This document shows, one piece after another, positions 9,366 to 59,775 of a stretch of DNA of 64,000 bases (position 1 is the stretch's first letter; every line of letters begins with the position of its first letter). The position numbers and the translations under genes are program-made. The notes under the pieces were generated by a model. The model ran no database searches. It was not told the origin of the DNA and saw only the letters and a list, made by a program, of their open reading frames with translations. The stretch comes from Gammaproteobacteria bacterium (lineage in GTDB: Bacteria > Pseudomonadota > Gammaproteobacteria > Pseudomonadales > Azotimanducaceae). Where the stretch lies: positions 1 through 64,000 of the forward strand of contig VXYL01000056.1 of NCBI GenBank assembly GCA_009846005.1, in the 5' to 3' direction.

Positions 9366-11144
9366 ATGGCCGAAGAACTGACTGGAGAAGGTGTGGACGG
9401 GTTGCCGACGACGGCGCTACCGCCCATGGACGAGGACATCGGCCTCGAGAGCTTTGAAGCGTTGTTCGAGGAGAGCCTCGCCACACTCGAGATGGAGCCC
9501 GGATCGATCGTGACCGGCACCGTGGTGGAGATCGACAAGGAATTCGTGCTCGTCCATGCCGGACTGAAGTCCGAAGGCGTCATCCCGCGCAGCCAGTTCC
9601 TGAACGAAGACGGCGAGTTCAGCCTAGAGGTCGGCGACCAGGTGCAGGTCGCGATGGAAACCGTCGACGACGGCTGGGGCGAAACCCGGCTGTCACGGGA
9701 GAAGGCCCGGCGCGCCGAATCCTGGCAGATGCTCGAGCACGCCTTCTCGACCGGCGATGTCATCAAAGGCATTCTGAACGGCAAGGTCAAGGGCGGCTTC
9801 ACCGTCGACATCAACGACATCCGGGCGTTTCTACCCGGCTCCCTGGTGGACATCCGACCGTTGCGCGAGACAGCCCACCTGGAAGGCCGGTCCCTGGAAT
9901 TCAAGGTCATCAAGCTGGATCAGCGGCGCAACAACGTGGTGGTGTCCCGGCGGGCGGTGCTCGAGGAAGAGAGCAGCGCCGAACGGGAAGCTCTGCTCGC
10001 CTCGCTCCACGAGGGCCAGGAAATCAAGGGCATCGTCAAGAATCTCACCGACTACGGCGCATTCGTCGATCTCGGTGGCCTCGACGGGCTACTGCACATC
10101 ACCGACATGGCCTGGCGGCGGGTCCGTCACCCCAGCGAGATGGTCAACGTCGGCGACGAGGTGCCGGTCAAGATCCTCCGCTTCGACCGGGAGGCCAGGA
10201 AAGTCTCACTCGGCATGAAGCAACTCGGCGACGATCCGTGGGTGGATATCGCACGGCGCTATCCGCAGGGAATGCGCGTCGTCGCACGGGTGACCAACTT
10301 AACGGACTACGGCTGCTTCGCGGAAATAGAAGAAGGCGTGGAGGGCCTCGTGCACGTCTCCGAGATGGACTGGACCAACCGCAACGTACACCCGTCGAAG
10401 GTGGTCGCCGTTGGTGACGAGGTCGAAGTCATGATCCTGTCCATCGACGAAGACCGGCGCCGCATTTCACTCGGCATCAAACAGTGCCGCGCGAACCCCT
10501 GGGACGAGTTCGCCGCTTCGCATTCGCCTGGCGACCGCATCCGCGGGCGCATCAAGTCGATCACCGACTTCGGCATCTTCGTGGGACTCGACGGTGGCAT
10601 CGACGGCCTCGTCTATCTCTCGGACATTTCCTGGAAAGAGCCCGGCGAAACGGCGGTACGCCGCTACAGCCGGGGCGAGGAAATCGACACGGTGATCCTG
10701 TCCATCGACTCCGAACGCGAGCGCATCGCGCTTGGCATCAAGCAACTCGACGACGATCCATTCAACGACTACGTCGAAGCGCACGACCGCAACAGCATCG
10801 TCGACGGCGTGGTTGTCGCCGTCGAGCCCAAGGAAGTTCTCGTCAGACTCGCTCCCGAGGTCGAGGCGGTGCTCAAGGCATCCGAGATCTATGCGGATCG
10901 CGTCGAAGATGCCCGGACCGCCCTGTCGGTGGGCGACGACGTGACCGCCAAGATCATCAGCATCGATCGCAAGAACCGTGGCATCAGCCTGTCCATCAAG
11001 GCCCGCGAGAAGGACGACGAGAAGCAGGCCCACCGCGAGTACCAGAAGAGCCAGCCCGAGCGGCCTGGACCCACGACCCTGGGCGATCTCATCAAGGCGC
11101 AGATGGGGGGCACGGACCAGCCGGCCTCGGACGAGGACGCGTAG
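9366..11144 (+). CDS. rpsA: 30S ribosomal protein S1
   Basis: S1 binds mRNA at the ribosome and helps initiation. The 592-residue protein contains six S1 RNA-binding domains; domains 3-6 are easily seen by the repeated [27 protein letters not shown] blocks. It is about 35 residues longer than E. coli S1 because of an acidic N-terminal extension. The ATG at 9366 has an AAGGAAAG ribosome-binding site. The stop codon is the TAG inside the CGTAGGGG end of a palindromic repeat, so the last codon (GCG) and the stop lie at the border of that element. Confidence 0.96.
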
Positions 11145-11166
11145 GGGACGGACTCGTCCCGTCCCG
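11140..11166 (+). repeat. CGTAGGGG-type palindromic element end overlapping the rpsA stop codon
   Basis: The sequence begins CGTAGGGGACGG and continues to CCCGTCCCG, forming a hairpin (GGGACGG pairing with CCGTCCC region) directly after the rpsA reading frame. The TAG at 11142-11144 is the rpsA stop. A second GC-rich hairpin, GGGCCC TTG CGGGC followed by GCGTTT, follows at about 11208-11226 and resembles the hairpin seen inside the mnmC/serA element. A degenerate right end reading GCCCCTAC may lie near 11290. Confidence 0.7.
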
Positions 11167-11370
11167 CCAGCCAGGCAAGCGGATATGTCCGATGCGGGGC
11201 CGCGTCGGGCCCTTGCGGGCGCGTTTAGGTCGCCACCCGACCCGACTAAGCGTTCGTGGGGTTTGCACATTGCGGAACCGCGTTCTCTGCCCCTACCCCC
11301 CGACCTTCTACGGGGCAGGCCGCTGTGGTAGTTTTCGATGCGTGACTTGCCACCTCGGAACGGGCGGCGA

Positions 11371-57825: not shown

Positions 57826-57887
57826 GTCGGCGACAATAGTAGCCCGCATTTCCCAATGTCGCTTGCGCGAACCACGCCACCGCATCG

Positions 57888-59609
57888 ATGTCCGCAACGA
57901 ACCCCCAACCCCTAGCGCCCGCCCAAGTCGATTTCGATGGCGCGCGCCCCGTTTCGCGCGCCTTCGGCGACATCTACTACGATGCCGACGGCCCGGCGGA
58001 GGTGGCACGCGCTTTCCTTGCCCCGGCAGCATTCGAGGCGCGCACGGCCGATCCGGCAGCGACGTTCACCGTCGGAGAACTCGGCTTCGGAACGGGTCTC
58101 AATTTCATCGTGGCCGCACACCGCGCCCGGAGCCGCCTGCATTTCATTTCAGTCGAACGCCATCCGCTGTCGGTGGACGACATGGCCCGGTCCCTCGCGC
58201 CGTGGAAAGCAGTGTTTCCCCTAGCGCGGGATCTTGTAGAACACTATCCGCCCCTGGTCCCGGGTTGGCACCGCCGCCTGTTCGAGGCGGGCCGGATTCA
58301 ACTGTCGGTCTACTTCGGCGACGTCCGCGACGCGTTCGCCGAGTTGGAACGGCAACAACGCCGAGGCGTCGACGCCTGGTTCCTGGACGGCTTCGCCCCG
58401 CGCCGGAATCCCGCGATGTGGCGCCGCGAACTGTTCGAGGCCATGGCCCGCCTGTCGGCCCCCCGGGCGAGCGTTACAACGTTCAGCGCAGCCGGCGACG
58501 TACGGCGTGACCTGGCAAGCTCCGGCTTCGAGGTCCGCCGCGTCGACCAACGGCCACACAAGCGGCACAGCACGGCCGGGGTCTTCGCCGGCAAGGGTCG
58601 CGATTTCGTTCCGCCGACCGCCGTGGCCGTCCTCGGCGCAGGCCTCGCGGGTACCGCAACGGCGCGGGCGCTCGCCGACAAGGGCATCGCCGTGTCAATC
58701 GCCGACGCGGGCGAAGGTCCCGCTGCAGGGGCGTCGGGCATTCCGGCGGCCGTATCGCATCCGCGGCTGTCGCATGCGCCGTCGACGCTTGCCAGTTTCC
58801 GCATGCACGCGTACGGATTCTCGGCACACCGCTGTCGCGGACTGCCCGGCGTGACTGCAAGCGGGGTTCTTCAGTTGCCCGGGCCCGACAACGACGCCGA
58901 CAAGCTGCGGCGAATCGCGGACGTGACGCCGCCCGGCATCGGCGAATACCTCGAACCCGATGCCGCAACGGACCGCGCCGGGATCGAGATTCGCGGACCC
59001 GCGCTGTTCTTCCCCACCGGCCTAACCGTCGACGGTCGTCGCCTCTCGGAGGCGCTATGCCGCGGCCTGGAGGTCGCCGCGTCTCACTCGGGCCACTCAT
59101 CGCCGGTGGTCAGAGCCACCGGTTCCAACGTCGACGGTTTCGACACCCTGGAGGTGACCGGGCTCGCCGGGCAGATGGACCGCTTCCGTTGCCGCCGTCC
59201 GCCCGATCTGCCGATCGTCGGCGACGGCACCGTCGTGCCCGCCGCACGGAGCGTATGGGCAGGCGCCACGTACGAATACCGGCCTTGGGCGACACGGGAC
59301 GCAACGTCGGCAAACGCCGTACGCTTCCAACGCCTGTTCGGCGACGCTCCGGGTGACTCCGTCGAGCGGTTCCGCGGCGTCCGGGCCGTGACCTCGGACC
59401 GCTTGCCAGTGATCGGCTGCGACGACGGCGCCTGGTTCAACTTAGGCCACGGATCGCACGGCACGACCACGGCAATTGTCGGTGCGGAGATCGTCGCCAG
59501 CGCCATCGCCGGCGAGGTGGCCCCGGTGACGACCGATCTACTCGAACTGGTTCGTCCGAGCCGGTTCCGAGAGCGCCAGCAACGCCGACCGAACCCGTTC
59601 AAGACGTAG
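57888..59609 (+). CDS. mnmC: Bifunctional tRNA wobble-uridine enzyme MnmC
   Basis: MnmC performs the last two steps of mnm5s2U formation at U34 of some tRNAs. Of its 573 residues, the first 240 are a SAM methyltransferase (ELGFGTGLNFI, DAWFLDGFAPRRNPAMW) and the rest an FAD oxidoreductase (VAVLGAGLAGTATARALADKG, then GHGSHGTTTAIVGAEIVASAI). The last codons are AAG ACG and the stop is the TAG inside the CGTAGGGG end of a palindromic element. serA ends at the opposite end of the same element. Confidence 0.94.
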   Translation: MSATNPQPLAPAQVDFDGARPVSRAFGDIYYDADGPAEVARAFLAPAAFEARTADPAATFTVGELGFGTGLNFIVAAHRARSRLHFISVERHPLSVDDMARSLAPWKAVFPLARDLVEHYPPLVPGWHRRLFEAGRIQLSVYFGDVRDAFAELERQQRRGVDAWFLDGFAPRRNPAMWRRELFEAMARLSAPRASVTTFSAAGDVRRDLASSGFEVRRVDQRPHKRHSTAGVFAGKGRDFVPPTAVAVLGAGLAGTATARALADKGIAVSIADAGEGPAAGASGIPAAVSHPRLSHAPSTLASFRMHAYGFSAHRCRGLPGVTASGVLQLPGPDNDADKLRRIADVTPPGIGEYLEPDAATDRAGIEIRGPALFFPTGLTVDGRRLSEALCRGLEVAASHSGHSSPVVRATGSNVDGFDTLEVTGLAGQMDRFRCRRPPDLPIVGDGTVVPAARSVWAGATYEYRPWATRDATSANAVRFQRLFGDAPGDSVERFRGVRAVTSDRLPVIGCDDGAWFNLGHGSHGTTTAIVGAEIVASAIAGEVAPVTTDLLELVRPSRFRERQQRRPNPFKT

Positions 59610-59775
59610 GGGACGGGCTCGTCCCGTCCCGGCGCGCCCTTCGGGCGCGTTTCTAGAATGCTCGCGCATTCTCGAGGCAGTCGATTTGACGCCTTTGTGC
59701 CCCGCTGCGCGGGCGACCGCCCGCCCTGGCGGGCGCGTTAGCGTCGAACGGGCGACCACAAGGGTCGCCCCTACG
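59605..59775. repeat. Palindromic element shared by the 3' ends of mnmC and serA
   Basis: The left end CGTAGGGGACGGGCTCG starts at 59605 and the right end finishes CGCCCCTACGG near 59775, so the ends form an inverted repeat. The TAG of the left end (59607-59609) stops mnmC. The TAG of the right end, read on the minus strand (59771-59773), stops serA. The 170-base interior holds several more hairpins, including AGAATGC pairing with GCATTCT around 59656-59673 and CGCCCGCC pairing with GGCGGGCG around 59718-59736. Confidence 0.85.
59633..59653 (+). terminator. Intrinsic terminator after mnmC
   Basis: CGCGCCC pairs perfectly with GGGCGCG around a UUC loop closed by C-G (a CUUCGG-type loop), and TTTCT follows. 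This is a good rho-independent terminator shape for mnmC transcripts. A similar hairpin lies after rpsA. Confidence 0.6.

Follow-up and report, generated by a model that had tools for sequence, protein, structure and literature searches.

Why should four genes within one stretch of bacterial DNA take their stop codons from copies of the same short repeat, always in the same frame? The question is raised by contig VXYL01000056.1 of a Gammaproteobacteria bacterium (assembly GCA_009846005.1), whose positions 1 to 64,000 are the 64-kb window referred to below. The window holds eight copies of CGTAGGGG, compared to 1.59 expected and with eight or more found in none of 100 shuffles. As the initial annotation had described, the TAG of this sequence is the stop codon of rpsA, of a thiolase gene, of mnmC and of serA, and all four cases were confirmed. 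The repeat is a new family within a known class, the GTAG-tagged repetitive extragenic palindromes (REPs). We consider it the probable explanation, with some reservation, that a family of this class, probably mobilised by a REP-associated tyrosine transposase (RAYT), persists at gene ends only where its TAG falls in the reading frame.

The agreement in phase of four of four gene-touching copies had been offered as evidence against chance. We rejected this argument as circular, because only one of the six frames of the consensus contains a stop, and a gene that ends inside the element on the GTAG strand must therefore use its TAG. It was replaced by a count of genes that read through the element. 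The home sample comprised 460,165 bases (the window and 20 stretches holding copies), in which 394 genes were called. Since the home stretches were picked for holding listed copies, their copy density is unrepresentative. The total sample comprised 1,448,040 bases from nine genomes of the same genus (the home genome, G000, and eight related ones) with 213 intact elements. Genes were called with our own codon-usage script at a threshold of 8, which left some window genes uncalled (e.g. in 45128-52934). Every one of the 213 copies contains the TAG; stops in the other two frames of that strand are absent from all of them, and six have one on the opposite strand.

Among the 98 elements of the home sample, 26 provide the stop of a same-strand gene, none is entered by a gene in another same-strand phase, 70 are intergenic and two overlap a gene on the opposite strand. 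In these last two cases (L035 and L039) the element lies inside the gene, within 20 nucleotides (nt) of the called start. Of all 213 elements, 64 provide a TAG stop, 145 are intergenic and four overlap an opposite-strand gene, and called genes enter none of them in the other same-strand phases. Reciprocal-best orthologue grouping reduced the 64 stops to 45 sites, 22 of them without a partner in the sampled DNA. Three of the four overlaps are at or near called gene starts, and the overlap in G010 involves the called 5' part of a gene that spans the edge of its stretch. The sole true read-through was found in G004 (L141, plus strand, 15563-16312), where the gene enters from the CCCG side and acquires the REP-encoded tail GDRKGRPYG. 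The phase bias is thus real. A pure artefact of arithmetic, in which agreement is automatic with a TAG in one frame only, fits the absence of stops from the other same-strand frames, the small number of opposite-strand stops (6/213) and the weightlessness of the four-of-four agreement; it is nevertheless highly improbable, as none of the 213 elements is run through by a called gene in the other same-strand phases and only one clear case is known from the other side. It also follows from the one-frame exclusivity that the repeat is rewriting the 3' ends of genes in such genomes.

We also looked for missed genes in the other five frames. There were 201 open frames of at least 60 codons, of which 150 were more than half covered by called genes. 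The remaining 51 all had a coding score of 4.3 or less from the furthest start, compared to the threshold of 8, and missed genes of this length in other phases were rejected on this basis. A crude open-frame test without gene calling was applied outside the genus, using 80 of at least 106 loci; 20 of the 80 were assigned to the genus by title, leaving 60. With frames of at least 150 codons and 130 loosely defined elements, it gave 7 for the TAG phase, 7 and 1 for the other phases and 13 for the opposite side. This test is a poor guide, because the home sample gave 29, 15 and 5.

Equal use of the three phases, which would have spoken against the initial idea, was not seen in the sampled part of the genomes (64 TAG-phase stops versus 0 and 0). 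As for the distance of copies from gene ends, most home copies are intergenic, and 44 of these 70 point their GTAG end towards the 3' end of an upstream gene, 16 of them within 40 nt of it and 7 within 20 nt.

Anatomy of the repeat and its copies in the window

The consensus is CGTAG GGGnnnnn CTTGT nnnnnCCC G, with an 8-bp stem and a 5-nt loop. A 5-nt loop is present in 95 of the 98 intact home elements; in these the loop is CTTGT in 78 and a G follows the returning arm in 89. The 98 copies include 12 distinct, perfectly paired stems, in which positions 4-8 vary on both arms. That the first three stem pairs are G-C is due in part to the search, which required the foot GTAGGGG. Elements had to carry GTAGGGG without mismatch and to pair at 7 or more of the 8 stem positions, a limit relaxed to 6 of 8 for the gap counts and for the crude open-frame test. 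The hairpin form itself was a selection criterion, and the independent evidence consists of copy number and of pattern counts set against a control pattern of 0. The home genome has 441 matches to the gapped consensus and 294 exact occurrences of CGTAGGGGACGGG (control pattern, 0). Copy number is therefore high, and the copies are mainly extragenic. Adjacent home copies within 200 bp of each other mostly have their GTAG ends outward (28 of 40 pairs, with 8 inward and 4 in the same direction), an arrangement like that of bacterial interspersed mosaic elements (BIMEs), and 28 of the 98 copies are singletons, separated by more than 250 bp from any other intact copy.

Of 16 genomes that belong to the genus, the home genome among them, 12 contain the gapped consensus; it was absent from the 42 further genomes of the family and order that were searched. 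When titled genomes were scanned, at least 106 stretches from many phyla matched, so the REP form is not limited to the genus. Among the matches listed, the foot-loop consensus occurs in Chloroflexi, Hymenobacter, Sedimentibacter, Latescibacterota, Opitutae and others (loci L173-L252).

The copies in the window and the genes that they stop are listed in Table 1. The last codons are GAC GCG TAG in rpsA, GCG GCG TAG in the thiolase-domain gene, AAG ACG TAG in the mnmC-like gene and GGC CCG TAG in the serA-like gene. The identity of rpsA follows from matches to TIGR00717 and NF004954 above both cut-offs, and the MnmC2 domain model also exceeds its cut-off in the mnmC-like gene. The other two names come from matches below the cut-offs of their models (thiolase/lipid-transfer models and phosphoglycerate dehydrogenase models, respectively). 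The stop of the thiolase-domain gene (site 1) is identical in G003, which has a REP, and in G010 and G011, which have a degenerate or other repeat, and the REP-less orthologue of the mnmC-like gene in G002 is longer by 7 codons. The copies at 59605 and 59750 form one pair that stops both convergent genes. Positions 59605-59746 are a recurring unit, found elsewhere in the home genome and in related genomes, for example at 89% identity at G000:C58 (query 1718-1859); among the matches listed, many begin at window position 59605 (query 1718), which is the C of CGTAG. The other four copies of CGTAGGGG (6604, 40536, 40552 and 40633) are intergenic.

Table 1. Repeat copies and the composite element in the 64-kb window, with the stops they provide
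Feature	Position	Strand	Remarks
REP copy	11140..11165	+	TAG 11142-11144, stop of rpsA (9366-11144)
REP copy	34348..34373	+	TAG 34350-34352, stop of thiolase-domain gene (33207-34352)
REP copy	59605..59630	+	TAG 59607-59609, stop of mnmC-like gene (57888-59609)
REP copy	59750..59775	-	TAG 59773-59771, stop of serA-like gene (59771-60958, minus strand)
Composite element (BIME)	59605..59775	.	between the convergent mnmC-like and serA-like genes
Intergenic REP copy	40518..40543	-	stem CGACC/GGTCG
Intergenic REP copy	40552..40577	+	stem ACGGG/CCCGT
Intergenic REP copy	40611..40640	-	9-nt loop
Intergenic REP copy	6586..6611	-	terminates a 21-bp tandem array of partial REPs

Some further repeat structures were observed. 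Window positions 6521-6611 contain REP half-units (GGGCGACCACAAGGGTCG...) without GTAG in a 21-bp tandem array, at the end of which the intact REP lies. Positions 51135-51575 carry in-register 63-nt repeats within a minus-strand open reading frame (ORF; 47097-52934, 1945 aa), perhaps encoding a repeat protein. At the stop of L042:5087-6160, the REP stem is ACGGG in G000 and ACACC in the orthologues of G002 (L093) and G010 (L090), with foot and loop constant; judged from these stems, REPs may have been swapped in place at this site. At L050:9695-9913 (minus strand), a gene of 72 aa ends at a REP whose stem is identical in five genomes while the DNA behind it differs, and the G011 copy differs at one loop base. 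On the minus strand of L047 (stop at 13950 in strand coordinates), well over 100 nt and further palindromes seem to lie inside a REP loop; similar starts of this long GTAG element are found in G002, G003 and G010.

A RAYT-type transposase and the proposed fate of insertions

A RAYT-type or other transposase able to move the copies had been proposed as something to look for, and a RAYT-type Y1 gene is indeed present among them. The translation of G000:C12:19094-19390 matched PF01797 (Y1_Tnp) with 39.4 bits (cut-off, 23), and REP copies lie around the gene at C12:18895, 19641, 19789 and 19871. Direct inspection of the protein revealed the motifs HVH and DYINANP, which we take to be the HUH motif and the site of the catalytic Tyr. 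Its G010 orthologue is 73.6% identical over 216 residues and has 12 REP copies in its locus. The RAYT genes of G000 and G010 each stop at a REP TAG, and these two genomes, the ones with this closely related RAYT, have the most copies (441 and 413 matches, respectively). Several further genomes have weaker Y1_Tnp matches that were unreached by a search with the home RAYT at 1e-5. In G004, G009 and G014 there is a distinct Y1 protein (32-37% identity), the locus of which is without intact copies, and G012, G013 and G015 have neither REP nor Y1_Tnp.

We suggest that REPs, either single or in BIME-like pairs with GTAG ends mostly outward, are probably moved, at the level of single-stranded DNA, by the RAYT-type HUH transposase whose gene lies among them. 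Such enzymes require a GTAG motif, which here lies at the hairpin foot and contains a TAG. Where an element inserted at the stop of a gene or within the few codons before it, it would survive only if its GTAG end faced the gene and its TAG were in frame. The gene would then merely lose a few codons or keep its original stop position. Movement by the RAYT is inferred, as is the purging of bad insertions as the source of the one-frame exclusivity. Survivorship of this kind explains much of the stop pattern. Since REP-rich and REP-free species are closely related, filled and empty sites can be compared at the same genes, making the landing and survival of REPs directly testable.

Possible survival, targeting and selection at gene stops

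Several observations weigh against this explanation by mobilisation and survival. Firstly, the one-frame exclusivity rests on gene calling: on the GTAG side the TAG phase had 104 raw frames of at least 60 codons, of which 64 were called genes, and the other two phases had 49 and 38. Secondly, the model for REP-associated tyrosine transposases, NF047646, gave 78.5 bits (E 4.4e-22), just under its cut-off of 80, and a phmmer search of the RAYT against PDB gave 0 matches. The number of Y1_Tnp matches did not track the number of REPs: G005 has 129 consensus matches and G001 has 7, both with no Y1_Tnp match, and G006 has 7 Y1_Tnp matches and no REP, while G007 has 2 Y1_Tnp matches and 1 REP match. 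Thirdly, under our assumptions on exposure, stop copies were too numerous for a filter alone. If wrong-frame insertions are the only ones lost, insertions per position just past a stop should be at least as frequent as tolerated insertions in the tail. With 14.5 usable nt per gene and a tolerated tail of 8 codons, assumed from the offsets, the model predicted a share at stops of 0.36. Among GTAG-facing copies, 26 were at stops and 7 within 20 nt after a stop in the home sample (26/33; P = 4.7e-7, or P = 0.0016 with a 16-codon zone). The other genomes, whose sites are partly orthologous, had 38 at stops and 15 within 20 nt after one (38/53; P = 1.4e-7, or 0.003 with the 16-codon zone). Finally, at 7 of 15 informative orthologous sites (7, 9, 13, 14, 19, 20 and 23), REP-less orthologues all stop at the same codon as the gene that carries the REP.

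As stop copies outnumber those in the first 20 nt downstream, a preference in landing or retention for stop codons, acting on top of the filter, is suggested. Copies further downstream of stops, which served as an internal control, had no in-frame excess (24/96, P = 0.10). Another possibility is that a native TAG or GTAG is chemically preferred for insertion of the element, with GTAG serving as a guide or as junction microhomology, so that REPs land on stops. The excess over the filter prediction and the unchanged stop position at the seven sites both favour targeting of this kind; one orthologue at each of sites 7 and 23 reads GTG TAG with no hairpin, and the native stop at site 13 is CTAG. 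Native GTAG stops are also frequent in REP-free congeners (32/194 genes in G013 and 15/138 in G012). GTAG is preceded by C in 140 of 145 intergenic copies compared to 52 of 64 stop copies (P = 4.7e-4), as if the gene's own GTAG had been used in some of the latter. The same C does, however, precede GTAG in most stop copies, as in intergenic ones, suggesting that most copies bring their own CGTAG and that a minority use the gene's GTAG. In addition, cleavage in vitro of other REPs occurs at CT or CA, and not at TAG, in the systems covered by the accessible part of Corneloup et al. (2021, PMC8266576), where GTAG is described as important for cleavage.

Orthologue pairs were reciprocal best hits with at least 65% identity, and longer matches between the related genomes were mostly 80-96% identical. 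There were 23 orthologous REP sites, of which 18 had a pair of REP versus none; sites 4, 17 and 22 were set aside for doubtful gene calls or orthology, leaving the 15. Even where the position is unchanged, the REP-less stop is TGA at site 9 (G000, G002 and G003) and TGA or TAA at site 14, and the REP may have been lost at sites 19 and 20, rather than having replaced a native stop. In most comparisons at sites 8, 11 and 18, the native gene extends 2-5 codons further. At site 2 it is longer by 7 codons in G002 and by 1 in G011, and at site 12 it exceeds the REP-bearing gene by 6 codons in G010 but falls short of it by 10 in G005. The comparisons disagree at sites 3, 5 and 16, where the native offsets range from -3 to 0, -1 to +1 and -1 to +9, respectively, the native gene being one codon shorter in several comparisons. 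Overall, gene ends were equal in 669 of 872 REP-less pairs but in 38 of 82 pairs of REP against none, these pairs not being independent. Because 7 of the 15 sites keep the old stop and the rest are shifted or mixed, the stop codon does not appear to be a strict target, and the suggestion in the initial annotation that the element targets stop codons was not established. No target-site duplication was noticed at the ten sites viewed, where the flanks have diverged and no systematic test was made. Exact junctions and duplications cannot be fixed, since the sequence behind the elements is often unrelated between species.

Taken together, this leaves targeting unlikely as the account of the pattern. 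Active steering, in which the GTAG foot that guides the RAYT would also match the native GTAG or TAG stops of the genus, is likewise doubtful. If it did operate, the REP would be a self-supplying stop cassette that docks at gene ends and rarely harms its host, and paired elements would be able to stop two convergent genes together. Another route to the same arrangement is stop loss, in which the REP landed downstream and the native stop was later lost, extending the gene to the REP TAG. This would suit sites 3, 5 and 16, where the gene with the REP exceeds some orthologues by one codon, but it has very little probability: at most of the other informative sites the REP ends the gene at the native stop position or before it, and downstream copies are not enriched in frame.

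The common use of TAG itself is separate from the repeats. TAG accounted for 39% of stops in the home sample, compared to 31% (138 genes) and 47% (194 genes) in the REP-free G012 and G013. The idea that REPs raise TAG usage was rejected on these figures, and REPs did not create the common TAG stop, since it is also common in REP-free congeners.

Positive selection is a further candidate: the copies may be kept as a portable module of stop plus hairpin that terminates translation and influences the 3' end of the mRNA. Their distribution among gaps between genes agrees with this, and their scarcity in divergent gaps speaks for the survival reading as well. Counting gaps that are at least 20 nt long or carry an element, the home sample had elements in 26 of the 46 gaps between convergent genes, in 27 of the 151 between codirectional ones and in 4 of the 57 between divergent ones; the poverty of divergent gaps (4/57 versus 53/197 of the others) was significant at P = 0.001. 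A REP stop is present in 22 of the 57 element-bearing gaps and at both ends in 3, including that between mnmC and serA. Predicted RNA folds at the four window stops range from -16.2 to -19.8 kcal/mol, with a z of -2.6 at two of them and about -1.1 at the other two, and at site 10 the hairpin has an identical stem in five genomes with differing sequence behind it. The hairpin is, however, nearly symmetrical, while the facing of copies in the first 20 nt is not: 7 face the stop with GTAG and 1 with CCCG in the home sample, and 15 and 1 in the other genomes, a bias to which outward pairing contributes. Direct inspection of the four window stop copies revealed no T run behind the arm, as a Rho-independent terminator would have, and the initial proposal of selection for a stop-plus-terminator was not established. 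The elements also appear to decay in place. Outside intact REPs, GGG follows 34 of 338 TAG stops but 5 of 506 TGA stops in six REP-bearing genomes (summed), compared to 2 of 134 TAG and 5 of 160 TGA stops in two REP-free genomes, and decayed REPs thus seem to leave a TAG-GGG trace at stops. Selection for such a module is accordingly improbable, and mobilisation with survival in the TAG frame remains the reading that we prefer.

Comparison with known systems

We did not recognise a phase count or an empty-site comparison in the accessible literature on REPs or transposons and stop codons, most subscription journals being outside the search. REPs within 15 nt of stop codons have been discussed for E. 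coli, in the part of PMC12306157 available, and the available part of Nunvar et al. (2010, PMC2817692) places REPs very near the stop codons of RAYT genes. The family also resembles REP doublets that form hairpins (REPINs), as defined by Bertels and Rainey (2011, PMC3116915). There, in the accessible text, inverted REP doublets are the likely units, and 28 of 40 adjacent pairs here have GTAG outward; unlike REPINs, singletons are also common here (28/98). The main text of PMC3116915 nowhere uses the phrase "stop codon".

In the accessible parts of PMC8266576 and PMC2817692, REPtrons consist of a TnpAREP/RAYT gene and its cognate REPs, and the presence of a RAYT-type Y1 gene within a REP cluster is a shared feature. 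The perfect 8-bp palindrome with a short loop resembles the group 3 REPs of the REPtron literature, as far as that literature was available. Unlike REPtrons, the present system combines a 5-nt loop (CTTGT) with 12 types of perfect stem within one sample and has a family score just below cut-off, and it is known from sequence alone. According to the part of PMC8266576 available, the mechanism of REP spread has yet to be worked out.

The closest likeness is to the superfamily of GTAG-tagged REPs, for which Di Nocera et al. (2013, PMC3733652) state, in the part accessible, that the GTAG termini often supply the TAG stop codon to flanking ORFs. The stop-supplying pattern is thus already in print, in one sentence, for REPs of this class. 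Unlike those REPs, the copies described here have many stem variants on one loop and foot, and the host genus was not seen named in the accessible text, which also lacks a phase count, an empty-site comparison and a comparison of neighbouring positions, all of which were made here. Like those REPs, the elements of this genus are short hairpins with an unpaired GTAG end that occur in hundreds of copies, often as inverted pairs, and they are mostly intergenic and near 3' ends, mainly in gaps between unidirectional or convergent genes.

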